DNA of 34,693 nucleotides, taken from assembly GCA_019136215.1 (NCBI GenBank), contig JAGVUP010000170.1, positions 1 to 34,693 on the forward strand, written 5' to 3'. The DNA comes from Chloroflexota bacterium. Lineage in GTDB: Bacteria > Chloroflexota > Anaerolineae > Anaerolineales > Anaerolineaceae. The position numbers were made by a program, and so were the translations under genes. Below are positions 1,051-33,880 of this stretch, piece by piece. The notes beneath the pieces are model-generated. The model did not search any database and was not told the origin of the DNA. It saw only the letters and a program-made list of their open reading frames with translations. Positions within the stretch are counted from its first letter, which is position 1; each line of letters opens with the position of its first letter.

Positions 1051-1923
1051 ATGATAAGACCTTTTATCGAAACTCTCCGTCCGCGCCAATGGACGAAAAA
1101 TGCTGTGATATTCGCTGGGCTCGTCTTTGACCGCCAGCTCTTTATCCCAGGTTCAGCATTACACGTATTGGCAGCCTTTATTCTCTTCTGTCTGGTCTCC
1201 GGGCTCACGTACACCATCAATGACCTCATTGACCTCAAAGCCGACCGTCAACACCCACAAAAATGCCACCGTCCGATTGCTTCCGGACGCCTCTCCGTGA
1301 AACAGGCAGTCATGTTTGTCATCTTCCTCGGTCTATTCACCTTCACAATGGCTTTTGTTCTCTCCTGGAAGCTCGGTCTCGTTTGCCTTGCTTACACGCT
1401 GCTCATGCTGGCTTATTCAAAATGGCTCAAACAAGTCATGATCATTGACGTAATGGTCATCGCCGCAGGCTTCCTTTTGCGTGTTTTCGCGGGAATCAGC
1501 GTCATCAAAGTAACCTTTTTCTCCCCCTGGCTCTTTCTCCTCACCGGGCTTCTTGCCCTGTTCCTGGGTTTGGGAAAACGCCTCGCCGAGCTAAGGCTGC
1601 TCGAGGGCAACGCGGGTGAGTTCCGCAAAGTGCTCAACGGTTACTCAGCGCCCCTCCTGAACCAGTATCTGGTTGTCATGCTTGCTTCGATCCTGATCAG
1701 CTACATGCTCTACACCTTCTCCGCCTGGCCCCAGGGACCTTCCTACGGGATGATGATCACCATACCCTTTGTTCTCTATGGTATTTTGCGCTACATGTAC
1801 CTGATTCAAAATTTCAACACCGCCTCCACTCCGGAGGAGGTGCTTCTCAAAGACCGACCTCTGCAAGCCGCTATCTTCCTTTGGGGGTTGGCTGTTTTAC
1901 TGATTCTTTATCTCAGACCGTGA
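1051..1923 (+). CDS. UbiA-family prenyltransferase, decaprenyl-phosphate phosphoribosyltransferase-like
   Basis: 290 residues with about nine hydrophobic segments. The N-terminus (ETLRPRQWTKNAVIFAGL) and the first Asp-rich motif NDLIDLKADRQHP followed by RPIASGRLS match the UbiA branch that contains decaprenyl-phosphate (DPPR) synthases. That branch transfers 5-phosphoribose diphosphate to a polyprenyl phosphate at the membrane. A second polar motif lies around YSKWLKQVMIIDVMVIAAGFLLRVFAG. The neighbouring downstream genes make isoprenoid precursors, consistent with a polyprenyl substrate. The substrate cannot be fixed from sequence, so another UbiA function (quinone or lipid prenylation) remains possible. 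No Shine-Dalgarno is visible before ATG 1051; a TAAGAT hexamer ends six bases upstream. The stop is six bases before the mevalonate kinase start, so they are likely cotranscribed. Confidence 0.8.
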   Translation: MIRPFIETLRPRQWTKNAVIFAGLVFDRQLFIPGSALHVLAAFILFCLVSGLTYTINDLIDLKADRQHPQKCHRPIASGRLSVKQAVMFVIFLGLFTFTMAFVLSWKLGLVCLAYTLLMLAYSKWLKQVMIIDVMVIAAGFLLRVFAGISVIKVTFFSPWLFLLTGLLALFLGLGKRLAELRLLEGNAGEFRKVLNGYSAPLLNQYLVVMLASILISYMLYTFSAWPQGPSYGMMITIPFVLYGILRYMYLIQNFNTASTPEEVLLKDRPLQAAIFLWGLAVLLILYLRP

Positions 1924-1928
1924 GGTGA

Positions 1929-2882
1929 ATGATGCCCGTAAAAACCGCGAATGCCTGTGGAAAATTGATTTTGCTTGGTGAACATGCCGTAGTGTACGAC
2001 AGCCCTGCTATTGCCATCCCATTGCTCAGCCTCAAGGTTCGCGCCACCGTCGAACCGCTCATCGGTAAGCCTCAGGGCAGCATCCAGATCAAAGCCGCCC
2101 CTCTGGGGATCGATCAGGACATTGATGATCTTGGGAAAGCGCATTTTTTGGCGCAGACTCTCGACCTGCTCTTCGATTACCTTGGGCTGCTCAAGCGCCC
2201 CACCTGCCGCCTGACCCTCAGCTCCGAGCTGCCCATTGGGGCTGGGTTAGGTTCCAGCGCTGCTATTGCCGTGGCGCTGCTGCGGGCAATGTCCGCTTTT
2301 CTTGGATACACCCTCAAGCCGCAGGAACTCAACACCCTGGCTTTTCAGTCCGAACAGGCTGTCCACGGACGACCATCAGGCATTGACAATACCGTCATCA
2401 CCTACGAAAAGCCGGTTTATTACCAGCGCGGAAAAATGATCGAATTTTTCCAACCAATTCGGGAATTCACCTTCGTGGTTGCTGATTCCGGGGTGCGCAA
2501 GTCCACCCGCGAATCAACTGGTCAGGTCGCGCACGACCTCGCCGCCAATCCCACCTTCATCCAGCCCCATTTGGATGCCATCGCGGAACTGGTCAGAGAG
2601 AGCAAACGTTCCTTCCAGATCGGCGATATCGAAGCTCTCGGCAGGGCGATGAACGCCGACCAGGAGCATCTCTCCGCGCTGCGCCTCTCCTGCCCGGAAC
2701 TGGACGCGCTGATTCTCGCCGCCCGGCAGGCTGGCGCCCTCGGCGCCAAGCTCACCGGTGGGGGCATGGGCGGGCACATGCTCGCGCTGGTCACACCCGA
2801 AATACAAACCGCTGTCAGTGAAGCGCTCAGCGCTGCAGGCTCGCCGCGCGTGTTCTTGACCCAACTCCGCCCCGAGGATTAA
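1929..2882 (+). CDS. mvk: Mevalonate kinase
   Basis: 317 residues of the GHMP kinase family. It phosphorylates mevalonate to 5-phosphomevalonate in the cytoplasm. Motif 1 is ANACGKLILLGEHAVVYDSP (about residues 7-26), motif 2 is the ATP loop PIGAGLGSSAAIAVA (102-116), the substrate region HGRPSGIDN is at 146-154, and motif 3 TGGGMGGHMLAL lies near the C-terminus. GEHAVVY and GRPSGIDN favour mevalonate kinase over galactokinase or homoserine kinase. The start is ATG 1929 or the adjacent ATG 1932, with GAGGTGA just upstream. The gene sits between the UbiA-type transferase and IPK, which strongly supports an isoprenoid role. Confidence 0.92.
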   Translation: MMPVKTANACGKLILLGEHAVVYDSPAIAIPLLSLKVRATVEPLIGKPQGSIQIKAAPLGIDQDIDDLGKAHFLAQTLDLLFDYLGLLKRPTCRLTLSSELPIGAGLGSSAAIAVALLRAMSAFLGYTLKPQELNTLAFQSEQAVHGRPSGIDNTVITYEKPVYYQRGKMIEFFQPIREFTFVVADSGVRKSTRESTGQVAHDLAANPTFIQPHLDAIAELVRESKRSFQIGDIEALGRAMNADQEHLSALRLSCPELDALILAARQAGALGAKLTGGGMGGHMLALVTPEIQTAVSEALSAAGSPRVFLTQLRPED

Positions 2883-2888
2883 AGCCCG

Positions 2889-3683
2889 GTGACCGTGCCA
2901 CGCCTCACCTTTCTCAAATTGGGCGGCTCGCTGATCACTGACAAAGACCAGCCGGAAACCGCACTGACTGACCAGATCGATGATCTGCTTGCTCAGATCG
3001 CGGCTTGGCGCCAGGTGAACCCGGATCGGCGGCTCCTTTTGGGTCATGGTTCAGGCTCTTTTGGGCACCATACCGCTGCCAAATTCGGCACGCGCGAAGG
3101 CGTCCGCAGCCCGGAGGAATATCTCGGCTACCAGCAGGTCTGGTACAGCGCGCGAAGCCTGAACCAGATTTTTCTTTCCCGGGCGCAGGCGTTCAGCCTT
3201 CCGCTGATTGCCTTTCCGCCTTCCGCCTGCGTTTCCGCCGAGAATCGTCATATCCAGACCTGGAATCTCCATCCGATCATCCGAAGCCTTGAAATGGGCT
3301 TGATTCCCCTCGTATACGGAGATGTCGTCTGTGATGTTGCCCTCGGGGGCACGATCCTTTCGACCGAGGATCTCTTTGTCCACTTGGCAGGCTCGCTGCG
3401 ACCAGAGCGCATCCTCCTCGCGGGCAAAGTCGATGGGGTTTTCGCGGATTTCCCGCGCAATCAGCAGCTCCTGCCCCGCATACCCGCCGATTCCGATTTC
3501 TCTGTTTTTTTGCACGGCTCAGCGAGCGAAGATGTTACCGGCGGAATGGTCACCAAAGTCCAAACCATGCAGGCATTGTGTCGTTCCCTGCCCGGGCTTT
3601 CTGTGCAAATTTTCTCCGCCGCCGCTCCTGGAGCGCTGCGCAATGCCCTGGATGGCGGCGCAATCGGCACAATCATCGGCTGA
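2889..3683 (+). CDS. ipk: Isopentenyl phosphate kinase
   Basis: 264 residues of the amino acid kinase superfamily. It converts isopentenyl phosphate to isopentenyl diphosphate. The N-terminal nucleotide loop reads FLKLGGSLITDK (residues 8-19), and GHGSGSFGHH ends at about residue 61 with the conserved catalytic histidine near position 60. Later blocks include GDVVCDVALGGTILSTEDL and the C-terminal DVTGGMVTKV. IPK is typical of archaea and of some Chloroflexota that use a modified mevalonate pathway. It starts with GTG at 2889 (a second GTG lies at 2895), six bases after the mevalonate kinase stop. The decarboxylase step is not in this window. Confidence 0.9.
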   Translation: MTVPRLTFLKLGGSLITDKDQPETALTDQIDDLLAQIAAWRQVNPDRRLLLGHGSGSFGHHTAAKFGTREGVRSPEEYLGYQQVWYSARSLNQIFLSRAQAFSLPLIAFPPSACVSAENRHIQTWNLHPIIRSLEMGLIPLVYGDVVCDVALGGTILSTEDLFVHLAGSLRPERILLAGKVDGVFADFPRNQQLLPRIPADSDFSVFLHGSASEDVTGGMVTKVQTMQALCRSLPGLSVQIFSAAAPGALRNALDGGAIGTIIG

Positions 3684-3732: not shown

Positions 3733-4887
3733 ATGATTTACACCAGACAACAGCTTGAAGAGATTGAAGACCAAACCCTTGCGCCATACGGCATCCGCAG
3801 CAAGAATTCCAAAGGGCGCAAGTATCCTGAGGAAGAAGCCGACTATCGCACAAGTTTCCAACGCGACCGCGAAAGGGTCATCCACACAACCGCTTTCCGC
3901 CGTCTGGAGTACAAGACCCAGGTCTTCATCAATCACGAAGGAGACTATTACCGCACCCGCCTGACCCACTCCATTGAGGTCGCGCAAATTGGGCGTTCGG
4001 TTGCCCGCACGCTTGGCGCCAATGAAGACCTGGTGGAAACCATCTGCCTCGCCCATGATATCGGGCACCCCCCTTTCGGTCATTCAGGCGAAACAGCCCT
4101 TGCCCGTCTGATGAAAGAGCACGGCGGTTTTAACCACAACCAACAGTCACTGCGGGTGGTCACGCAGCTTGAGAATCGCTATCCCGACTTCCCGGGGCTC
4201 AACCTGAGCTGGGAAGTCCTCGAAGGAATGGTCAAACACGAAACGGATTACGACATCGCCGACGCCCAGGATTACGATCCTGAACTGCGCGGCAGCCTTG
4301 AAGCTCAAATCGCCAACATTGCTGATGAACTGGCATATACCTCCCACGACCTTGATGACGGCTTGCGTTCCGGGATGATCACCCCCTCCCAACTGGACGG
4401 CATCGCCCTGTGGGAAATCGTCAACGAAAGCCTCGGACGCCGGCGCAGCGAAACGCTCGATGACCTCTCACGGCATCAAATCATCCGCCGCCTTATCAGC
4501 TTTGAGATCACTGACCTTATCCAGTCGATCGACCGCTACCTGCGAAAAAGCGGCGTCAGTTCTTCCCTCGACCTGCAAAAACTGCCCTTCAATGTGGCAG
4601 GCTTCAGCGAAGATATGTACCGCCGCAACCGTGAGTTGAAAGATTTCCTTTTCAACAAACTCTACCGCCATCATCGCGTGGTGCGCATGTCGGGCAAAGC
4701 TGAACGAATTATCACCGATATCTTCACCATGTATCAGAGTACCCCCGCCGCCCTGCCCGAATCAGTCCAGGAGTTCATTCCTCAGCGCGGTCTTGAACGC
4801 GTTATATGCGACTACATTGCCGGGATGACAGACCGCTTCGCGATCGACGAACACCTGCGGCTCTTTGACCCACAATCATTACCATAG
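3733..4887 (+). CDS. dgt: dGTP triphosphohydrolase-like HD-domain protein
   Basis: 384 residues. The N-terminal block HTTAFRRLEYKTQVF, then GDYYRTRLTHSIEVAQI (His79) and LAHDIGHPPFGHSGE (His108-Asp109) form the HD metal site of deoxyguanosinetriphosphate triphosphohydrolases, which cleave dNTPs to nucleosides plus triphosphate. The C-terminal antibiotic-binding-type helical region is present, so the length is normal for the shorter dGTPase-like subgroup. GAGG lies six bases before the ATG. A TATAAT hexamer at 3710-3715 hints at its own promoter, but no good -35 is visible. greA starts 13 bases after the stop. Confidence 0.92.
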   Translation: MIYTRQQLEEIEDQTLAPYGIRSKNSKGRKYPEEEADYRTSFQRDRERVIHTTAFRRLEYKTQVFINHEGDYYRTRLTHSIEVAQIGRSVARTLGANEDLVETICLAHDIGHPPFGHSGETALARLMKEHGGFNHNQQSLRVVTQLENRYPDFPGLNLSWEVLEGMVKHETDYDIADAQDYDPELRGSLEAQIANIADELAYTSHDLDDGLRSGMITPSQLDGIALWEIVNESLGRRRSETLDDLSRHQIIRRLISFEITDLIQSIDRYLRKSGVSSSLDLQKLPFNVAGFSEDMYRRNRELKDFLFNKLYRHHRVVRMSGKAERIITDIFTMYQSTPAALPESVQEFIPQRGLERVICDYIAGMTDRFAIDEHLRLFDPQSLP

Positions 4888-4900
4888 GAGTAAGGTATAT

Positions 4901-5374
4901 ATGGCTCTCTCACCTCAAATCATAACACCTGCCGGCAAGGCAAAACTTCAGGAAGAATTGGCTGAGCTCAAAGGACCCCGCCGCGAAGATCTTGCCCGCC
5001 GGCTGAAACAAGCCATCGAAATGGGCGACCTTTCCGAAAACGCGGATTATCATGCCGCCAAGGAGGACCAGGGATTCCTCGAAGGGCGCATCCAGCAGAT
5101 CGAAGCCATCCTCGCGACCGCGATTGTGGCGGAAGATACGGACATCAACACCCACGTTGTGCAAATTGGTAACACCGTCACCCTGCAGGAAGGAAACGAA
5201 CCCGAAGAGACCTACACCATTGTCGGTGCGAACGAAGCCAATCCCCGCCAGCGCAAGATTTCCTACGAATCTCCGATGGGGGCTGCCCTGATGGGTCATA
5301 AAAAAGACGAAACGGTTACGGTTCATCTCCCAAATGGCGAGTCGGTGATGATTAAAATCATCAATATTGCCTGA
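4901..5374 (+). CDS. greA: Transcription elongation factor GreA
   Basis: 158 residues. GreA binds the RNA polymerase secondary channel and stimulates cleavage of backtracked RNA. The N-terminal coiled coil contains TPAGKAKLQEELAELKGPRR and the tip motif GDLSENADYHAAKEDQGFLEGRI with the acidic residues that act at the polymerase active centre. The C-terminal domain has QIGNTVTL and an SYESPMGAALMGHKKDETV segment typical of the FKBP-like fold. I start at ATG 4901, behind AGGAG, because the in-frame ATG at 4865 would overlap dgt and adds twelve residues foreign to the family. It ends at a strong terminator. Confidence 0.95.
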   Translation: MALSPQIITPAGKAKLQEELAELKGPRREDLARRLKQAIEMGDLSENADYHAAKEDQGFLEGRIQQIEAILATAIVAEDTDINTHVVQIGNTVTLQEGNEPEETYTIVGANEANPRQRKISYESPMGAALMGHKKDETVTVHLPNGESVMIKIINIA

Positions 5375-24121: not shown

Positions 24122-24568
24122 ATGTTTTACGGAAGGTTTGAGCACAACATCGACAAGAAAGGACGGATGACGGTTCCTTCCAATTACCGTGAACAAACTT
24201 CCGGCGATCTTGTCTGCGTGACCAAAGGACTGGACGGAAACCTGATGGCGTATTCCAAAGATAAGTTCGACATCATCGCTGACTCGATCAACAGCATTTC
24301 CATCACGGATCCCCGCCTGCGTTCCATGCGCCGTGAGATTTTGGGTGGTTCTGCTGAGCTCACTTATGACACAGTTGGACGCATCCTCATTCCGACACAC
24401 CTGCGGAAGTTTGCCGGCATTGAGGAAAAGGTGGTCATCATTGGCGTTGGAGACAGCTTTGAGATCTGGGCTCCCGAACGGCTGGAAGCGGAAGAAAACG
24501 CGAACAGCGACCCGAAAGCAAATGCTGACCGCTGGGCAATGTTCAATATCAATACTAGAGGAAATTGA
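24122..24568 (+). CDS. mraZ: Transcriptional regulator MraZ
   Basis: 148 residues. MraZ is an AbrB-fold, ring-forming DNA-binding protein that controls the dcw cluster. The start MFYGRFEHNIDKKGRMTVPS is canonical, and the second repeat shows LTYDTVGRILIPTHLRKFAGI, so both SpoVT-AbrB halves are present. AGGAA lies about ten bases upstream of ATG 24122. An in-frame ATG at 23981 would put the promoter and operator inside the coding region, so I reject it. It is the first gene of the plus-strand cluster. Confidence 0.95.
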   Translation: MFYGRFEHNIDKKGRMTVPSNYREQTSGDLVCVTKGLDGNLMAYSKDKFDIIADSINSISITDPRLRSMRREILGGSAELTYDTVGRILIPTHLRKFAGIEEKVVIIGVGDSFEIWAPERLEAEENANSDPKANADRWAMFNINTRGN

Positions 24569-24576
24569 GGAAAGCG

Positions 24577-25506
24577 GTGAGCGAAGACAACTTCCCGCAC
24601 CGCCCGGTACTTTACAAAGAAACAATTCAATATCTGGCTCCTTCAAGCCCGAAGCGCTATCTGGATTGCACTGCCGGCGCCGGAGGTCATTCGGAAGGCA
24701 TCCTGACCCACTGCTCCCCCCTCGGAGAGCTCCTGGCTCTGGACCTCGACCCCCAGGCAATAGCCCTCACCAGGCAGCGCCTCAGCCCCTTTGGTGAACG
24801 CGCGCGCGTTGTGCATGCGTCTTACCTGCGGAGCGCTGAAATCCTCCGCGAACTTGGATGGACGGGCGTTGACGGGATTGTGATGGACCTCGGTGTGTCC
24901 TCCATGCAGCTTGACCAGAGCGAACGCGGTTTTTCCTTCAGGCATGACGGTCTGCTGGACATGCGCTTTGACCCCACCCACGGCAAAACCGCTGCTGATC
25001 TGGTCAACGGTCTGGATGAAGCCAGTCTGGCTGACCTCCTCTGGCGCTACAGCGAAGAGCGGTTCTCCAGACGGATCGCGCGGGCAATCCTCCGAGCCAG
25101 ACCCTTGAGGACTACGGGGGAATTGGCAGAGGTGATCAGGAACGCTCTCGGCAAAACCCGAGAAAAGCAAGATCCCGCCACCAGAACTTTTCAGGCGCTG
25201 CGCATCGCAGTGAATGACGAGCTCAGAACTATTGAACAGGCAATACCGAGCCTGATCGCACTTTTAAACGAATATGGACGCCTCGCGGTCATCAGTTTCC
25301 ACTCGCTGGAAGACCGATTGGTGAAGCAGGCTTTCAAACGCGAAAGCACAAACTGCCTCTGCCCTCCCGAGCAGCCAGTCTGCACCTGCGGGCATAAAGC
25401 GAGCGTCCGGATTTTAACCTCCAAACCGGTGACGGCATCACCGGAAGAGGTTGAGAGTAATCCGCGGTCTCGCAGCGCGAAATTGCGGGTGGTAGAGAAG
25501 TTGTAA
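24577..25506 (+). CDS. rsmH: 16S rRNA (cytosine(1402)-N4)-methyltransferase
   Basis: 309 residues. RsmH (MraW) methylates N4 of C1402 in the P site of the 30S subunit. The motifs are PHRPVLYKETIQYL, the SAM loop LDCTAGAGGHSEGIL, DGIVMDLGVSSMQLDQSERG, the domain with DPATRTFQALRIAVNDEL and AVISFHSLEDRLVKQAFK. I prefer GTG 24577, behind GAGGAAAG, over the TTG at 24565 that would overlap the mraZ stop. It is 8 bases after mraZ. Confidence 0.95.
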   Translation: MSEDNFPHRPVLYKETIQYLAPSSPKRYLDCTAGAGGHSEGILTHCSPLGELLALDLDPQAIALTRQRLSPFGERARVVHASYLRSAEILRELGWTGVDGIVMDLGVSSMQLDQSERGFSFRHDGLLDMRFDPTHGKTAADLVNGLDEASLADLLWRYSEERFSRRIARAILRARPLRTTGELAEVIRNALGKTREKQDPATRTFQALRIAVNDELRTIEQAIPSLIALLNEYGRLAVISFHSLEDRLVKQAFKRESTNCLCPPEQPVCTCGHKASVRILTSKPVTASPEEVESNPRSRSAKLRVVEKL

Positions 25507-25526
25507 AGAAATGGCATAGAAACTGC

Positions 25527-26060
25527 ATGGAAAAGGCTATGAAAAAGAATCTCTTACAAGCCTATAAACAAGCCCCCTGGCGCACTCAGCTCCAGTGGAT
25601 CGGCATTTTCTTGCTGGTGCTGGTCGGCATTGCTGTAGTTGCCGGCGTATATCTGATGATCAGCGGACGCGCCGCCGCTACCGGGCGGCGGATCCAAAAT
25701 TTGGAGGCGGAAATCTTAGCCTTGGAGATGGAAATCAACGATCTTAGAACGCGATATGCGGAAGCCTCTTCCGCGAAATCATTAAGTGAACGGGCGGAAG
25801 CGCTGAACATGACCCTGCTGGACCCACTCGAGGCAATGTACATCGAAGTTCCCGGTTACATCCCGCCCTCCCAGCCGGCGCTCGCCCCTCCCCCAGCCGT
25901 TGAGGATATCAGCACACCTGTGCTGCTGCCTGAATTTACAGCATCTTTATGGGATTGGCTGAGGCTGAAAGTTTTTGTCGAGCCAAGCCCAACCGAAGGA
26001 CCAGCGGAAAGCGCAGTCCCCGAAGAGCTTGCGCCCGTTCCGACGGAGGTGGCTCCATGA
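25527..26060 (+). CDS. FtsL-like cell division protein
   Basis: 177 residues. One TM segment at about 24-45 follows a basic N-terminus, then a coiled coil at about 52-95 (RIQNLEAEILALEMEINDLR and on), then a Pro-rich tail with PSQPALAPPPAVEDI. This bitopic layout and the location between rsmH and the PBP gene are those of FtsL, a member of the FtsQLB division complex. Sequence conservation in FtsL is always weak, so the name rests on topology and context. The tail is longer than in most FtsL. Either ATG 25527 or 25539 may be the start; neither has a strong Shine-Dalgarno. It overlaps the next gene by four bases. Confidence 0.7.
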   Translation: MEKAMKKNLLQAYKQAPWRTQLQWIGIFLLVLVGIAVVAGVYLMISGRAAATGRRIQNLEAEILALEMEINDLRTRYAEASSAKSLSERAEALNMTLLDPLEAMYIEVPGYIPPSQPALAPPPAVEDISTPVLLPEFTASLWDWLRLKVFVEPSPTEGPAESAVPEELAPVPTEVAP

Positions 26061-27853
26061 AAACGACAAATTGGAATCGTTTCTTTGTTATTTGCGTTGT
26101 GGCAAGCGTGGTGGCTGCAGCCGCTGGCATCCAACTCATCCGCATCCAGAATATCGAAGGCGCGAAGCAGATCCTGGAGGACAGCGAAGCCTACCAGGGC
26201 ATCAACCGAATGATATATCCCGAACGCGGCAGCATTTACGATTCGGAAGGACGCCTCCTGGCTGGAAACGAAGTGGTATACGAAGTTGGGCTCGACCTGC
26301 GAGCCATCCAACAACCCGAAACGGTAGCGGCTGCTGCCTCAAGCGTGCTCGGGCTCGATTATGCCACCGTCCTCGGCTATTCCCAGATGACTCCTGGCAA
26401 CGGCAATCCCTACTTCGTCGTTCTGGACGGCTTCGCGAGCAAGGATAAGATCGACCAATTGGAAGTCATCAAAGATGACTATGCCAGCCGCAGCGTCAAA
26501 CGCGGCGAAGTTCGCCCCAACCTCGAAGGGCTGGTCTGGACCGCTAACAACAAACGCAGCTACCCCGAAGGCACGCTCGCGTCAAATATCCTTGGTTTTT
26601 ACAGCTTCCGGGACAGAACCGATGGTATCGGCTATTTCGGGATTGAAGAAGCCTACGATGACCTGATGGCTGGAGAACCCAAACTGATCTACTCGGCGAT
26701 TGACCCCAACCTGCTGACTTCGGTGGAAGAGGTACCGCCGGGTGTAACAGTGCAGTTAACTTTCAACCGTGAAATTCAAGCGATGACGGAAAGGAAACTC
26801 GACGAAGCGCTGAAATGGTCCGGAGCCGACAACGGCACAATCGTTGTCTACGACCCAGAAACCGGCGAAATCGTTGCGATGGCGACCGCTCCCAGGCTGG
26901 ATCCGAACGAGTACTGGAATTATTCGGAGATCTTCCCCAACCCCAAGCCCTACAACAGCGCCATCAGCAGCACCTACGAACCAGGTTCCGTCTTCAAGGT
27001 CATCACCATGGCAGCCGCTTTGGACGCCGGCGTGGTCACCGCTGACACCACCTTCAACGACACTGGCTCTATCACAGTCGGCGGCGCAACCATCTACAAC
27101 TGGAACATGGGCGGCTGGGGCGAAGTGGACATGACCGGCTGCATGCAGCACTCCCTCAACGTCTGTCTCGCCTGGCTGGGAACCGAACTTGGTCCGGACC
27201 GTTTCTATTCTTATCTGAAATCCTTCGGTTTTGACCGCAATACCGGCATTGATCTGGGCGGTGAGAACCACTGGCCTCTCAAACTCCCCGGCGACGGTTT
27301 ATGGTACGAAGTTGACCTGGCGACCAACTCTTTTGGGCAGGGCATATCCGTCACCCCGATCCAAATGGTGACGGCAATCGGCGCGGTCGCTAATGAAGGA
27401 AAAATGATGGCGCCGCATGTTGTCAAGGCAATGGTCATCGATGGCAAGCAGTACAATGTTGACCCGGTTGTGGTCGGCACGCCCATCTCCGCAGAAACTG
27501 CCCGCACCCTGACACAAATGCTGGTCGATTCTCTCGAAAACGAAGCTTCTTCGGCGCTGGTCGAAGGATACAGCCTGGCAGGCAAGACCGGCACCGGCGA
27601 AATCGCCACTCCGCTCGGCTACACAAACTCCGCCACCAACACCTCTTTCGTTGGCTGGGGACCTGCTGAAGATCCAAAATTCCTGGTCTATATCTGGCTC
27701 GAAAAACCCGAAATCTCCATTTGGGGTTCCGAAGTCGCGGCTCCGGTTTTCTCAGACCTCGTCGAAGACCTGGTAGTGTTGATGAATATCCCTCCTGATA
27801 ATGTCCGTCTGTCTTTAAGATACGACGGACGCAACATTGCAGGATTGGAGTAG
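26057..27853 (+). CDS. ftsI: Class B penicillin-binding protein (FtsI/PBP2 type transpeptidase)
   Basis: 598 residues. It cross-links septal peptidoglycan from outside the membrane. There is an N-terminal TM anchor (about 9-28), the pedestal starts at YPERGSIYDSEGRLLAGN, and the transpeptidase domain has SVFK with catalytic Ser311, SLN at 366-368 and KTGTGE with Lys510. ATG 26057 overlaps the FtsL-like stop (ATGA) and has GGAGGT eight bases upstream; the longer frame back to 25949 overlaps ftsL and is not used. There is no C-terminal PASTA domain. Confidence 0.94.
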   Translation: MKTTNWNRFFVICVVASVVAAAAGIQLIRIQNIEGAKQILEDSEAYQGINRMIYPERGSIYDSEGRLLAGNEVVYEVGLDLRAIQQPETVAAAASSVLGLDYATVLGYSQMTPGNGNPYFVVLDGFASKDKIDQLEVIKDDYASRSVKRGEVRPNLEGLVWTANNKRSYPEGTLASNILGFYSFRDRTDGIGYFGIEEAYDDLMAGEPKLIYSAIDPNLLTSVEEVPPGVTVQLTFNREIQAMTERKLDEALKWSGADNGTIVVYDPETGEIVAMATAPRLDPNEYWNYSEIFPNPKPYNSAISSTYEPGSVFKVITMAAALDAGVVTADTTFNDTGSITVGGATIYNWNMGGWGEVDMTGCMQHSLNVCLAWLGTELGPDRFYSYLKSFGFDRNTGIDLGGENHWPLKLPGDGLWYEVDLATNSFGQGISVTPIQMVTAIGAVANEGKMMAPHVVKAMVIDGKQYNVDPVVVGTPISAETARTLTQMLVDSLENEASSALVEGYSLAGKTGTGEIATPLGYTNSATNTSFVGWGPAEDPKFLVYIWLEKPEISIWGSEVAAPVFSDLVEDLVVLMNIPPDNVRLSLRYDGRNIAGLE

Positions 27854-27858
27854 AAACA

Positions 27859-29277
27859 ATGTTGACCCTCAGCCACGTTCTCAAAGCGCTCGCGCCAACC
27901 GCGGATTACCAAATCCCGCAGGATTTTGAAATCGCTTGTGGGTGTGTAGATTCGCGCTGCACTGTCAGTAAGGGGCTCTTTGTGGCGTTAAAGGGCGAAA
28001 ACACGGACGGTCATTTGTTTGTGGATCAGGCTTTTGCCAACGGCGCGGTTTTGGCGCTGACCGATCAACCGATCGAAAGCGTCTTCCCGGTAGTGGATAT
28101 CCGTCAGTCGGGTTTTATCCTGCCGGCAATCGCCCCCTTCAGCCTGCGGACCTCAAACACGCTGGAAGCTCTTCAGACACTGGCAAAATACTGGCGCGCG
28201 CAGCACAACCTGACCGTGATCGGCATCACCGGCAGCGTCGGAAAATCCTCCACCAAGGAATTGGCGGCTTCCGTGCTGGGGAGCCGGGCGAGAACCCTGA
28301 AAAATCAGGGGAACATGAACAACGAAATTGGTCTGCCGCTTACGCTGCTTTCCTTGAACGAAGAACACAAAGTGGCGGTACTCGAGATGGGCTTCTACGT
28401 TTCGGGTGAAATCGAACTCCTATGCGATATCGCCAAGCCGCAGATCGGGATCATCACAAATATCGGCACGGTCCACGCGGAACGCGCCGGCAGCATTGAA
28501 GATATTGCCCGCGGGAAAGCCGAACTGGTTGAAGCCCTGCCCGCCTCGCCGGATGGGCTCGCGATTCTTAATTACGACGATCCTTACGTCAGAGAGATGG
28601 CATCTCTCACCGCCGCGCGCGTTTTCTATTACGGGCTGGATCCCAAAGCCGACCTCTGGGCGGACGAAATCCAGAGCCATGGCTTAGAGGGGATACGCTG
28701 CCGTATGCACTATCAGGGAGAGAGCCTCTTCGTCTCCGCGCCATTGATCGGGCGCCACTCGGTCTACACCATGCTGCGGGCTGCCGCGGTCGCGTTCAAC
28801 CTGGGCATGGATTGGGACGCGATTTTTGACGCCTTCAAGGATGACCGCTTTCAGGTCCGCATCGTCACCGTCCGCACCGCTTCCGGCGCGATTCTGATTG
28901 ACGACAGCTATAATGCCTCCCCCGACTCGACCATCGCAGCGCTAAACCTGCTTAATGACCTGAATGGGCGCAAGGTAGCTGTGCTTGGTGATATGCTCGA
29001 GCTCGGTCGCTACGAGGAAGCCGGTCACAACCGTGTCGGTCTGCGGGCTTCTGAAGTCGCGGATGAGATGGTGCTCGTCGGTACTCGCAGCCTGATGACC
29101 CGCGACGCAGCTCTCGGGAACGGTTACCGTGCTGATAAAATCCGCTGGTTCGACGACTACACCGGCGCGCTCGCATATTTGAAAGAAGCCCTGCACGCCG
29201 GCGATGTTGCCCTCGTGAAAGGGTCGCATAGTATGCACATGGAAAAAATCGTATCAGCTTTGGAGGATCTAAACTAA
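27859..29277 (+). CDS. murF: UDP-MurNAc-tripeptide D-alanyl-D-alanine ligase
   Basis: 472 residues. MurF adds D-Ala-D-Ala to UDP-MurNAc-tripeptide in the cytoplasm. The ATP loop is GITGSVGKSSTKELAASVL, then TLKNQGNMNNEIGLPLTLL, NIGTVHAERAGSIEDIARGK, DDSYNASPDS, GDMLELG and the C-terminal VKGSHSMHME. These favour MurF over MurE, MurC or MurD. It starts five bases after the PBP stop. murE, which usually sits between ftsI and murF, is absent. Confidence 0.94.
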   Translation: MLTLSHVLKALAPTADYQIPQDFEIACGCVDSRCTVSKGLFVALKGENTDGHLFVDQAFANGAVLALTDQPIESVFPVVDIRQSGFILPAIAPFSLRTSNTLEALQTLAKYWRAQHNLTVIGITGSVGKSSTKELAASVLGSRARTLKNQGNMNNEIGLPLTLLSLNEEHKVAVLEMGFYVSGEIELLCDIAKPQIGIITNIGTVHAERAGSIEDIARGKAELVEALPASPDGLAILNYDDPYVREMASLTAARVFYYGLDPKADLWADEIQSHGLEGIRCRMHYQGESLFVSAPLIGRHSVYTMLRAAAVAFNLGMDWDAIFDAFKDDRFQVRIVTVRTASGAILIDDSYNASPDSTIAALNLLNDLNGRKVAVLGDMLELGRYEEAGHNRVGLRASEVADEMVLVGTRSLMTRDAALGNGYRADKIRWFDDYTGALAYLKEALHAGDVALVKGSHSMHMEKIVSALEDLN

Positions 29278-30272
29278 TGCGTGATTCTTCGCTGGCAATT
29301 GCCATAAGCAGCATCAGTTTCATGCTGACCGTCATCTGGGGCAGCCCATTCGTCCGCATGCTGCGGAAGTTAAACATCGGAAAGATCATCCGCATCGACG
29401 TTCCGGCATCTCATATGGCAAAGATGAACACCCCCACAATGGGCGGTTTCATGTTTCTCATTCCTGTGACCTTGCTTACCGTCATCCTCAACGCGGTTTC
29501 GCTCTTCGGCTCGCAACTGATCGGCTCCTCCATCCTGGTACCGCTGGCTACCATGTGGGGCTTCGCGCTGATTGGCGCGGTGGACGACTGGGAAGGCATC
29601 CGCGGACCAAGGCGCGGACTGGGAATGCGCGGAAAGACCAAATTCCTGCTGCAGTGTCTCGTGGCGCTGGTGATCGCCTATGCCCTCAAAGAAATCCTGC
29701 TGATCCCCCACCTGCTCTGGCCTACTTCATTGGTTCCCCTAAACCTGGGCTGGGCTTACCTGGCGATCGCAGCCTTCTTCATCGTCGCATATTCCAATGC
29801 CATCAACCTGACCGATGGAATTGATGGTCTGGCTGGCATGATCTCCATCGCCGCTTTTGGCGCCTACGGCATTATCGCGCTTATGCAGGGGCAGATATAC
29901 CTCGGACGTTTCTGCTTCTGCATCGTTGGCGCGCTGGCAGGCTTTCTATGGTTTAATTGCAAACCCGCAGCGCTCTACATGGGCGACACCGGTTCGCAGG
30001 CGCTCGGCGCAACGCTCGCGGTGGTCGCGCTGATGACCGGGCGCTGGCTGTTCCTGCCGCTGATTGCCATCATCCCCACCGCTGAGATGGTGAGCGTGAT
30101 CATTCAGGTGCTCTATTTTAAAGCGACCGGCGGCAAACGCGTCTTCAAGAAAACCCCGATCCATCATCATTTTGAGATGATCGGTTGGGAGGAGAACCAG
30201 ATCGTGATGCGCTTTTGGCTCATTGAGCTGATTGGCGCCATGCTGGGACTGAGTATGGCATTTTTAAGCTGA
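29277..30272 (+). CDS. mraY: Phospho-MurNAc-pentapeptide transferase
   Basis: 331 residues, about ten TM segments. MraY makes lipid I from UDP-MurNAc-pentapeptide and undecaprenyl phosphate at the inner face of the membrane. Motifs are TMGGFMFL near 51-58, the catalytic DD in ALIGAVDDWEG, NAINLTDGIDGLAG and the histidine motif PIHHHFEMIGWEENQIV. ATG 29277 shares a base with the murF stop, so translation is coupled. Confidence 0.96.
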   Translation: MRDSSLAIAISSISFMLTVIWGSPFVRMLRKLNIGKIIRIDVPASHMAKMNTPTMGGFMFLIPVTLLTVILNAVSLFGSQLIGSSILVPLATMWGFALIGAVDDWEGIRGPRRGLGMRGKTKFLLQCLVALVIAYALKEILLIPHLLWPTSLVPLNLGWAYLAIAAFFIVAYSNAINLTDGIDGLAGMISIAAFGAYGIIALMQGQIYLGRFCFCIVGALAGFLWFNCKPAALYMGDTGSQALGATLAVVALMTGRWLFLPLIAIIPTAEMVSVIIQVLYFKATGGKRVFKKTPIHHHFEMIGWEENQIVMRFWLIELIGAMLGLSMAFLS

Positions 30273-31663
30273 TGAAAACAAACTATTCTGGCAAAAAAGT
30301 GATCGTGATCGGAGCAGCCCGCCAGGGACTGGCGATTTCACGCTACCTCGCTGGAAAAGGTGCTCAGGTCCTGCTGACCGATTCCCGTTCCGCGGATGAG
30401 CTTGCGCCCGCCCGCGCCGCACTGGCAAACCTGCCGGTGGAATTCGCCTTCGGCGGGCATCCGGAAAGTCTTCTCGAAGGCGCCGATCTGCTCTGCGTCT
30501 CGGGCGGGGTGCCCCTGACCATCCCCCTCATCGTGGCGGCACGCAGCCAGGGCATCAAACTCAGCAACGACTCGCAAATCTTCCTTGAGGAATGCCCCGC
30601 AACCGTGATCGGCATCACCGGTTCCGCCGGCAAGAGCACCACTACCGCCCTGGTCGGTTTGATGGCGAAAAAACATTTTGAAATGAAAACCAGCCCTCAC
30701 CGCGCCTGGGTAGGCGGCAATATCGGCAACCCGCTGATCGATGACCTCGACAAAATGGATGAAGATGACCTGGTGGTGATGGAACTCTCGAGCTTCCAAC
30801 TGGAATTGATGACCGCTTCACCGCAGGTGGCAGCGGTATTGAACATCACCCCCAACCACCTCGACCGCCACAACTCCATGCAGGCTTACATCGAAGCTAA
30901 ATCGCGCATTTTGCGCTACCAGCATCAGGGTGATGTGGCGGTCTTGAACCGCGATGATGAAGGTACCTGGGATTTACGCAACCAGGTCCGCACGGATGTG
31001 ATCAGCTTTGGCTTGAAAGCCCCGGCTTATCGCGAAAACGGCACCTACGTGGACGATGGGCAGATTATGCTCCAAATCGGCGGAGACAGGCTCAAGATGC
31101 TGCCGGTAGAGTGGATCAACCTGCGCGGTGAACACAATCTCTATAACGTTCTGGCTGCCTGCGCCCTCGCCGCTGGCGCGACGATCGGTCTGCCGGGCAT
31201 CCAATTGGCAATTGAAACCTTCGACGGTGTTCCGCACCGTCTGGAATTGGTGCGCGAGCTGAACGGCGTGCGTTGGTACAACGACTCGATCGCTACCGCG
31301 CCCGAACGCACGGTCGCCGCAATCAATTCTTTTGAAGAGCCTATCGTGCTGCTGCTCGGCGGTCGCGATAAAAAACTTCCCTGGGACCATCTCGCGCAGT
31401 TGATCCGCAAGCGGGTTTCACGGGTAGTGATCTTTGGTGAAGCCGGCGACCTGATCGCTGACGCGATCGGTCCCAAAAAGCCCGGTCAGGCGATGCGGAG
31501 CGTTGTTCGCTGCGCCACGCTGCACGAAGCCATCAAAACTGCGTACAAACAGGCCGAAAAGGGGGATGTCGTCTTGCTCTCCCCCGGCTGCACATCCTAT
31601 GACGCCTTCAAAGATTTCGAAGAACGAGGGCAAGCATTCAGAAAATGGGTGAACGAACTATGA
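30272..31663 (+). CDS. murD: UDP-MurNAc-L-alanine:D-glutamate ligase
   Basis: 463 residues. Visible are VIVIGAARQGLAISRYLAGKG at the N-terminal fold, the ATP loop GITGSAGKSTTTALVGLM, MELSSFQLELM, NITPNHLDRH and YNDSIATAPERTVAAI, ending with LSPGCTSYDAFKDFEERG. Together these are MurD. It overlaps the mraY stop by one base and the ftsW start by four. Confidence 0.95.
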   Translation: MKTNYSGKKVIVIGAARQGLAISRYLAGKGAQVLLTDSRSADELAPARAALANLPVEFAFGGHPESLLEGADLLCVSGGVPLTIPLIVAARSQGIKLSNDSQIFLEECPATVIGITGSAGKSTTTALVGLMAKKHFEMKTSPHRAWVGGNIGNPLIDDLDKMDEDDLVVMELSSFQLELMTASPQVAAVLNITPNHLDRHNSMQAYIEAKSRILRYQHQGDVAVLNRDDEGTWDLRNQVRTDVISFGLKAPAYRENGTYVDDGQIMLQIGGDRLKMLPVEWINLRGEHNLYNVLAACALAAGATIGLPGIQLAIETFDGVPHRLELVRELNGVRWYNDSIATAPERTVAAINSFEEPIVLLLGGRDKKLPWDHLAQLIRKRVSRVVIFGEAGDLIADAIGPKKPGQAMRSVVRCATLHEAIKTAYKQAEKGDVVLLSPGCTSYDAFKDFEERGQAFRKWVNEL

Positions 31664-32889
31664 TAAACGCAACTACCCCAAAACCACGCCGGCGCGCGAA
31701 CGTCCAGTCCCTCTCCTTTGACGTGGGGCTGCTGCTGATCGTTGCCAGCCTGCTTGTGATTGGATTGCTAATGGTCTATTCCGCCAGTTGGGATGCCTCT
31801 ATGGCTATCAGCGATAGTAAAAGTCAAAACGCCATCTTTCTTCGCCAGGTGATCTGGGTCGTGCTGGGTGTGATCGGCGCGACCGTGTTGAGTTACTTCG
31901 ACTACCACCGCTACCGCAAATGGGTGGTGCCGATGATGCTTGTTGTCATCGGTATGCTATTCGCTGTGCTCATCGTCCGCGAAGTGCGCTACAACTCAGC
32001 CCGCTCCCTGCTGGACGGTTCCATACAGCCGGCCGAACTGGCAAAACTGGTTTCCGTGCTCTACCTTTCGGTTTGGCTCACAAACAATAAAGAAATGTTG
32101 AAGGATTTCAAAAACTACCTCCTGCCGCTTTCCTTCGGGATCGGTTTTGTGGTGGCTTTGATCCTCGCCCAACCTGACCTGAGCGCCGGTCTGACTGTGT
32201 TGATGCTGGGAATCATGCTGCTCTTCCTGGCTGGCGGAGATTGGAAACATGTTGCCATAGTCATCCTGGTCGGTTTGCTCGGATTTATCTTCCTCATCAA
32301 CGTGATGCCTACCGGGCGCATACGTTTCGCCCAATATCTTTCCGGGCTCGAAAACCCCACCAAGAGTTCCTACCACATCCGCCGCACCTACGAAGCGATC
32401 ATCAAAGGCGGCGTGTTCGGAGTCGGGCTTGGCAAAGCCAACACCAAGTTCACCGGACTGCCTCTGCCGCATACTGACAGTATTTTTGCCGTCCTGGCAG
32501 AAGAGACCGGCATCATCGGCTCGCTCATTGTCATCCTGCTTTATGTGCTGTTGCTCTGGCGGGGTTTCAAGATTGCCCGCAACGCGCCTGACCAGTTGGG
32601 CTCCCTGCTGGCATTCGGACTGACCAGTTGGATCGTCATCGAAGCGCTGATCAACGTGTCGGTCATCGTCGGCTTATTACCCTTTGCCGGCAACGCCTTG
32701 CCCTTCATCAGCGCGGGAGGCTCCAGCATGACCGCGACCATGGCTGCGATTGGGATCGTGATGAATGTTGCCCGACAGGGAACAACCACAACCGCTTCAG
32801 AAAGGAGTACCAGTGCGACTGTTGATTTGCGCAGGCGGGACTGGCGGCGGAGTGTATCCGGCGCTGACCGTTACGGAGAGGTTGAATAG
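31660..32889 (+). CDS. ftsW: Lipid II polymerase / division protein FtsW (SEDS)
   Basis: 409 residues with about ten TM segments. FtsW polymerises lipid II at the septum with the class B PBP. Signature elements are MVYSAS near TM1, the catalytic-region AELAKLVSVLYLSVWL, PLPHTDSIFAVLAEETG and GNALPFISAGGSS. I use ATG 31660, overlapping the murD stop as ATGA, rather than the upstream ATG in the murD reading region. The last 25 or so residues are read through the start of murG and look like out-of-frame sequence. Confidence 0.94.
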   Translation: MINATTPKPRRRANVQSLSFDVGLLLIVASLLVIGLLMVYSASWDASMAISDSKSQNAIFLRQVIWVVLGVIGATVLSYFDYHRYRKWVVPMMLVVIGMLFAVLIVREVRYNSARSLLDGSIQPAELAKLVSVLYLSVWLTNNKEMLKDFKNYLLPLSFGIGFVVALILAQPDLSAGLTVLMLGIMLLFLAGGDWKHVAIVILVGLLGFIFLINVMPTGRIRFAQYLSGLENPTKSSYHIRRTYEAIIKGGVFGVGLGKANTKFTGLPLPHTDSIFAVLAEETGIIGSLIVILLYVLLLWRGFKIARNAPDQLGSLLAFGLTSWIVIEALINVSVIVGLLPFAGNALPFISAGGSSMTATMAAIGIVMNVARQGTTTTASERSTSATVDLRRRDWRRSVSGADRYGEVE

Positions 32890-33880
32890 TGACACAGAGG
32901 TGCTCTGGGTCGGCAGCGAAGGTGGCATGGAGGCGGAGCTCATCGCTCGTGCGAACCTGCCCTACAAAGGCATCCGCGCGGCTGGGGTTCACGGCATCTC
33001 GGCGCAGCAATTGCCCGGCAATTTGGTGAAACTATGGCAAGGCTACAAACAGGCAAAGCGAATTCTCAGCGACTACCAACCGGACGTGTTGATGTTCACC
33101 GGAGGTTATGTGGCGATTCCCATGGCGCTGGCTGGTCTGAAAATCAAGACCCTGCTTTTCGTTCCGGATATCGAACCCGGACTGGCGCTGAAAACCTTAG
33201 CCCGATTTTCGGACAAAATCGCCGTCACAGTCAGCGATTCGAAGCGGTATTTCAGCAAGAAGGAACGTATTGAAGTGACAGGCTACCCTCTGCGTAAGGA
33301 CCTGATGCGATGGATCAAAGCGGATGCTCTGGAGTATTTCGGATTTGACCGTGAAAAACCCGTCATCCTCTTCACCGGCGGCAGCAGCGGCGCGCGCTCG
33401 ATCAACAAAGCAGTCATCGCCATCCTCAAAGAGCTGCTCCAGCGTTACCAGGTCATCCACCTGACCGGTCATCTCGACTGGGAAACCGTCAGGACCGCGA
33501 CCGCCAATCTTCCGCGCAGCTACCAGGCATTCCCATACCTCCACGAGATGGGCGCTGCATACGCGGCTGCCGACCTTGTGGTCTCCCGTGCGGGCGCTTC
33601 CGTTTTAGGTGAGTACCCGTTCTTCGGTCTGCCTGCCATCCTGGTGCCCTACCCCTATGCCTGGCGTTACCAGAAAGTCAACGCGGATTACCTGGTGGAA
33701 CGCGAAGCCGCCGTTTTACTGGAAGACCAATATCTGCAGAGTCAACTGCTTGCCCAAATCGACACGCTCATTCAGGATCAGCCGCGTTTGGAACATATGC
33801 GCCGCGCCATGCAAGCCCTTTCACAGCCTCAGGCTGCGGAACGCATCGCCAGCCTGATCTACGAAATGGCGGAGGGATAG
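32813..33880 (+). CDS. murG: UDP-GlcNAc:lipid I N-acetylglucosaminyltransferase
   Basis: 355 residues. MurG adds GlcNAc to lipid I to form lipid II on the cytoplasmic face. The protein starts VRLLICAGGTGGGVYPALTV and has a second glycine loop FTGGSSGARSINKAV, plus VVSRAGASVLGEYPFFGLP. GTG 32813 follows AAAGGAG and gives the family N-terminus; the frame is open further back only because it runs through ftsW. The usual GGTGGH is GGTGGG here. The gene overlaps ftsW by 77 bases. Confidence 0.94.
   Translation: MRLLICAGGTGGGVYPALTVTERLNSDTEVLWVGSEGGMEAELIARANLPYKGIRAAGVHGISAQQLPGNLVKLWQGYKQAKRILSDYQPDVLMFTGGYVAIPMALAGLKIKTLLFVPDIEPGLALKTLARFSDKIAVTVSDSKRYFSKKERIEVTGYPLRKDLMRWIKADALEYFGFDREKPVILFTGGSSGARSINKAVIAILKELLQRYQVIHLTGHLDWETVRTATANLPRSYQAFPYLHEMGAAYAAADLVVSRAGASVLGEYPFFGLPAILVPYPYAWRYQKVNADYLVEREAAVLLEDQYLQSQLLAQIDTLIQDQPRLEHMRRAMQALSQPQAAERIASLIYEMAEG

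Follow-up and report, generated by a model that had tools for sequence, protein, structure and literature searches.

A conserved UbiA–mevalonate kinase–isopentenyl phosphate kinase gene order and a probable modified mevalonate pathway in a family of Chloroflexota

The stretch of Chloroflexota DNA analyzed here, referred to as the window, spans 34,693 nucleotides and corresponds to contig C157 of an assembly that comprises 222 contigs and is 88% complete. Near its start, the following genes and open reading frames (ORFs) are encoded:

1051–1923, + strand: UbiA-superfamily enzyme, probable polyprenyl-phosphate phosphoribosyltransferase (DPPR-synthase-like), 290 amino acids; assigned by NF008977, NF008978, solved relatives, and PRPP-site residues
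1929–2882, + strand: mevalonate kinase (MVK), a GHMP kinase of 317 amino acids; assigned by TIGR00549 and best solved match 2x7i
2889–3683, + strand: isopentenyl phosphate kinase (IPK), 264 amino acids, GTG start; assigned by NF040647 and 11 conserved residues
3733–4887, + strand: dGTP triphosphohydrolase (dGTPase)-like protein; NF002326, 492.5 bits against a cut-off of 390
4865–5374, + strand: GreA-like ORF, with a start codon probably later than given; homologue at most of the 73 loci compared below

The ORFs for UbiA, MVK, and IPK are complete, run head to tail on the + strand with spacers of 5 and 6 bases, and encode proteins that all exceed curated NCBIfam cut-offs. The layout given in a preliminary description, with MVK and IPK directly adjacent, six bases apart, and a DPPR-synthase-like UbiA gene 5' of the pair, is thus exact in its coordinates and agrees with the over-cut-off match of UbiA to NF008977. 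The dGTPase-like gene is the conserved next gene and has no evident link to the pathway. On the other side of UbiA, positions 77–832 encode a small protein with no Pfam or NCBIfam match and a SufT/PaaD-like protein, which among the 73 loci were detected in the window only; the same-genus loci L135 and L137, unlike the window, retain the usual divergent neighbors. Farther downstream, a cell-wall/division cluster (24565–33880) contains, in order, a MraW-type methylase, a penicillin-binding protein, two Mur ligases, a family 4 glycosyl transferase (MraY-like), an FtsW/RodA protein, and a MurG-like transferase.

MVK scores 247.6 bits against TIGR00549 (cut-off, 163.05), and its best solved match is the mevalonate kinase 2x7i (E 1.6e-40). 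IPK reaches 162.8 bits against NF040647 (cut-off, 120) and carries all 11 residues, catalytic His included, that are listed as highly conserved among IPKs (PMC3857490, Table 2). Ten of these are identical in the 73 IPKs of the family, and Pro140 is present in 72 of them. Of the best 80 of 559 related loci, Anaerolineaceae metagenome assemblies supply the named IPK genes closest to that of the window (75% identity), in keeping with the bacterial host originally proposed; more distant named loci in this set belong to Ornatilinea apprima, Pelolinea submarina, and Levilinea saccharolytica.

The preliminary description had read IPK as a sign of a modified mevalonate pathway and had regarded a DXP pathway with no mevalonate genes as the contrary case. 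The same assembly encodes HMG-CoA reductase (HMGR; C184:21768–22880) beside HMG-CoA synthase (HMGS; C184:20561–21577, 515.5 bits against a cut-off of 353.35), along with a phosphomevalonate-decarboxylase-like enzyme on contig C192 (TIGR01240, 260.6 bits against a cut-off of 171.35) and a type 2 IPP isomerase (IDI-2) in two pieces, at the edges of contigs C176 and C17. Dxr, the one enzyme by which the DXP pathway was judged, had no match in any of 81 family genomes, the window's own included, while the same search was positive in 9 of 14 control genomes. Both findings bear out the original reading. Since the window's own assembly is fragmented and incomplete, one missing gene in it says little by itself. 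Across the 81 family genomes, over-cut-off matches were obtained for IPK in 73, the decarboxylase in 70, HMGR in 77, HMGS in 69, and IDI-2 in 74. A tally of IPK at E ≤ 0.001 (81 of 81) was set aside because it includes weak matches, probably to other amino-acid kinases. The eight genomes with no over-cut-off IPK are G002, G023, G024, G052, G055, G056, G058, and G073, of which G023 and G058 have partial matches; 11 genomes have no over-cut-off decarboxylase.

The PMK model TIGR01220 exceeded its cut-off in none of the 81 family genomes and in none of the 14 controls, which makes PMK the weakest of the gene absences, the more so with an assembly that is 88% complete. A divergent PMK could therefore escape detection, as would be required by a classical mevalonate pathway in which the C192 protein would be a genuine diphosphomevalonate decarboxylase and IPK would serve only to salvage isopentenyl phosphate. 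The decarboxylase scores fit that pathway as well, being over the cut-off of TIGR01240 and under that of the phosphomevalonate decarboxylase model NF040704 (181.5 of 475 bits). The kinase inventory argues the other way: the sole PMK-search match in the genome is MVK itself (C157:2211–2426), and GHMP_kinases_N has three matches in the assembly, to a galactokinase, MVK, and the decarboxylase. As a separate observation, the first ~85 residues of the galactokinase ORF (L001:955–2376, on contig C97 of the same genome) are, by eye and in frame, GIY-YIG nuclease-like, and the best galactokinase model aligns from residue 88 onward; a fusion, or two genes sharing one frame, is possible.

Residues that set decarboxylase specificity bear on the same choice. 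The best solved relatives of the C192 decarboxylase are 6n0x and 6n0y (E 1.1e-114) and also 6n0z, which we take to be entries for the phosphomevalonate decarboxylase of Anaerolinea thermophila; Anaerolinea belongs to the same family as the window's bacterium. The alignments show two differences between 6n0x and 6n0z, where the former has Asn and His and the latter Lys and Met; 2hk2, a diphosphomevalonate decarboxylase, agrees with 6n0z at both positions. The C192 protein has Asn and His, like 6n0x, and so shares both switch residues with its closest solved relative while having diverged from it in sequence. A PMD structure from A. thermophila has been described together with mutagenesis that shifted PMD specificity to that of DMD (PMC9254496). 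At the phosphate-site positions examined, the C192 decarboxylase has MPD-type residues (Asn, Arg, and His). Its Ser139 is MDD-like, and the same position is Ala in Roseiflexus castenholzii and Ser also in haloarchaea (PMC3857490, Table 4). We surveyed 31 family decarboxylases, namely the best-scoring 30 of the 70 over cut-off and the window genome's own. The Lys21 position is Asn in 27, Leu in two, and Asp and Met in one each, with Lys in none; Arg occupies the Ile27 position in 28; and the second switch position holds His 27 times, Met three times, and Gln once. Ser139 and the four relatives without His at that switch count against a phosphomevalonate decarboxylase. Given these PMD-type residues, here and in most of the 31 proteins, we consider the classical pathway very unlikely.

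It is highly probable, in our assessment, that this Anaerolineaceae bacterium makes its isoprenoids through a modified mevalonate pathway of the haloarchaeal and Roseiflexus type, with MVK and IPK probably cotranscribed with the gene for a UbiA-type phosphoribosyltransferase. Predicted activities would proceed as follows: HMGS would form HMG-CoA, from which HMGR would produce mevalonate; MVK would phosphorylate mevalonate to mevalonate 5-phosphate; the phosphomevalonate decarboxylase on contig C192 would convert this to isopentenyl phosphate; and IPK would yield IPP, which the type 2 isomerase would then isomerize.

The likeness to the archaeal and Chloroflexota version of the pathway, pointed out at the start, matches the published record, in which an alternative (haloarchaea-type) mevalonate pathway with MPD and IPK is described for R. 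castenholzii, a member of the same phylum (Dellas et al. 2013, PMC3857490). Like that organism, the window's genome has MVK, an MDD-like gene with MPD-type residues, and IPK; it gave no match to Dxr and, with the weaker PMK model, none to a PMK over cut-off. The Asn, Arg, and Ser of the C192 decarboxylase stand against Leu77, Arg83, and Ala201 of the R. castenholzii protein when mapped by motif and by eye. Among the classes of the phylum that could be examined in 2013, the same account recognized clear homologues of IPK in class Chloroflexi only (PMC3857490). The pathway is already in print for Chloroflexota and, by way of the A. thermophila decarboxylase, for a close relative.

Across 121 genomes of the phylum, IPK was found in 29 and Dxr in 89; no genome has both, and three have neither (G105, G157, and G172). 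UbiA is distributed more widely. At E ≤ 1e-20, NF008977 matches all 29 IPK genomes and also 50 of the 92 IPK-negative ones, and the match is over cut-off in 59 of the 121. A strict tie between UbiA and IPK was rejected on the strength of those 50 genomes.

The window UbiA exceeds the cut-offs of two NCBIfam models only, both of them for DPPR synthases, NF008977 (decaprenyl-phosphate phosphoribosyltransferase; 249.6 bits against 234) and NF008978 (207.2 against 207), and its solved relatives 8j8j (E 2e-37) and 8j8k are both decaprenyl-phosphate phosphoribosyltransferases. Eleven PRPP-contacting residues have been described for the mycobacterial DPPR synthase Rv3806c (PMC10994848). Counted along the printed alignment, nine of these (Arg22, Lys28, Tyr70, Asn73, Asp77, Lys87, Arg90, Tyr138, and Lys143) are identical in the window UbiA and invariant in all 72 family proteins. 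Unlike Rv3806c, the window protein has Met in place of Gln135 and Phe in place of Tyr157; the family proteins have Asn at the former position in 59 of 72 cases and Phe at the latter in 70 of 72. Exchange of Gln135 for Ala is reported to lower the activity of Rv3806c by 70% (PMC10994848), so the change at this position counts against full equivalence. With nine of the 11 PRPP-site residues kept, the UbiA protein is probably a polyprenyl-phosphate phosphoribosyltransferase.

An ordinary prenyltransferase of the quinone or heme type, brought next to MVK and IPK through general isoprenoid clustering only, would account for some of the same data. Many UbiA models match the protein at lower scores, and a third DPPR-synthase model, NF008976, is far under its cut-off (158.2 of 474). 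Among the control genomes, Corynebacterium glutamicum alone has an NF008977 match, and because that match is below cut-off, the name of the model has no firm tie to the enzyme of Actinobacteria. The DPPR-like UbiA genes of IPK-negative genomes likewise suit this explanation. We nonetheless regard it as unlikely in view of the two models whose cut-offs are passed, the DPPR synthases that are the solved relatives, and the nine invariant PRPP-site residues, phosphoribose-binding sites being described as not conserved across the wider UbiA superfamily (PMC10994848).

As a phosphoribosyltransferase, UbiA would transfer phosphoribose from PRPP to polyprenyl phosphate made from IPP, probably yielding a lipid-linked pentofuranose donor. 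The initial suggestion that its product feeds a polyprenyl phosphate sugar donor is plausible on these grounds. A DprE1-type arabinose branch, as in the mycobacterial decaprenyl-phospho-arabinose pathway, was rejected as its continuation: the ALO domain of DprE1 (PF04030) was found in none of the 81 family genomes, and the same search matched three of the 14 controls, including C. glutamicum, two of them over cut-off. Absence of the domain from the 81 genomes makes a ribofuranosyl donor more likely than an arabinosyl one, and we infer the former as the best fit. Bacterial systems that use such an enzyme to charge polyprenyl phosphate with ribofuranose, with no DprE1, have been described (PMC11127046). 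Set against the mycobacterial DPPR synthase and the Citrobacter polyprenyl phosphoribofuranose synthase (PMC11127046), the window UbiA differs in being clustered with isoprenoid genes, in a family where the ALO domain was not detected, and the NCBIfam scan showed no HAD phosphatase domain fused to it. Of the HAD phosphatase, flippase, and GT-C transferase of a three-component pentofuranose system (PMC11127046), none was recognized among the genes of the UbiA–MVK–IPK run in the window.

Gene order was compared at 73 loci, comprising the window and the IPK loci of 72 further genomes of the family in which IPK is over cut-off; the eight genomes lacking such an IPK were excluded, and some stretches end at contig ends. 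UbiA and MVK were both detected at 72 of these loci, and neither at L111 (genome G005). From the MVK stop to the start of IPK homology, distances range from −52 to +58 nt at all 72 loci; from the UbiA stop to the start of MVK homology, they range from −3 to 200 nt at 71 of the 72, with L094 (1248 nt) as the exception. The three genes are tightly packed at 71 of the 73 loci, and a dGTPase homologue was detected at 65. Among the named loci (best 80 of 559, some cut by contig ends), 57 have UbiA–MVK–IPK, 47 of them with the dGTPase; the others have MVK–IPK–dGTPase (two), IPK–dGTPase (eight), or IPK alone (13). The UbiA–MVK–IPK arrangement is beyond chance and common to most sampled members of the family. 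When the ORFs 5' of UbiA were clustered for 71 loci, three opposite-strand clusters, which are TlyA-, LepA-, and UPF0104-like, dominated (56, 49, and 41 loci), and UbiA therefore heads its run in most cases. No constant sugar-donor gene appeared among the 5' ORF clusters of the 71 loci.

Conserved order could reflect inherited synteny of UbiA, MVK, IPK, and dGTPase with no functional coupling, which we consider quite possible, and the downstream neighbors with no evident link fit that reading. Other families of the phylum bear on it in both directions. The window's family is labeled f1; f2 belongs to the same order, f15 lies outside the window's class, and f25 belongs to another class. DNA was read at the phylum's IPK loci over ~1.4 kb per side for all and at least 3 kb upstream for those refetched. 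In this DNA, IPK has no UbiA or MVK next to it in f2 (0 of 11) or f25 (0 of 6), as inherited synteny would have it, and UbiA is likewise not near IPK in the single f3, f4, and f14 genomes. Against that reading, UbiA stands directly 5' of IPK in all seven f15 genomes as well. Two side observations concern these loci: L270 has one 18-bit MVK match ~5 kb from IPK, and in the single f3 genome (L271:3950–7776), IPK follows, by eye, HMG-CoA synthase-, thiolase-, and DUF35-like genes in an archaea-like arrangement.

In a tree of 41 UbiA proteins, with 13 of 38 inner branches open and one very long row (L297), the f15 proteins form their own group (100/100), and all ten rows of f1 fall together with rows of f2 and f3, families of their own class whose UbiA is not linked to IPK (99/93). 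This tree thus gives no support to a common descent of the UbiA genes that lie by IPK in f1 and f15, and the linkage either arose separately or was lost elsewhere. The separation fits separate origins of the pairing and in that respect speaks against mere inheritance of gene order. Within the tree, one long stem branch (1.0) leads to the UbiA of the window together with that of the same-genus locus L131. Met at the Gln135 position occurs in two of the ten f1 rows, Asn being usual in the family.

We tentatively propose that UbiA, MVK, and IPK form a conserved functional unit that ties polyprenyl-phosphate supply to the phosphoribosyltransferase, that it may provide a lipid-linked donor of ribofuranose, rather than arabinose, for a glycan of the Chloroflexota cell envelope, and that the UbiA–IPK pairing may have arisen at least twice in the phylum; taken as a whole, this proposal is possible though somewhat doubtful. 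Within the openly licensed literature, we found no published account of UbiA–IPK clustering, which is the sole part of the finding not in print there. By over-cut-off IPK, the pathway first demonstrated in Roseiflexus can now be followed into 73 of the 81 genomes sampled from an Anaerolineaceae-type family, and IPK and Dxr split cleanly across 121 genomes of the phylum. The conserved UbiA neighbor, in turn, predicts an unstudied lipid-linked sugar in Anaerolineaceae-type bacteria.
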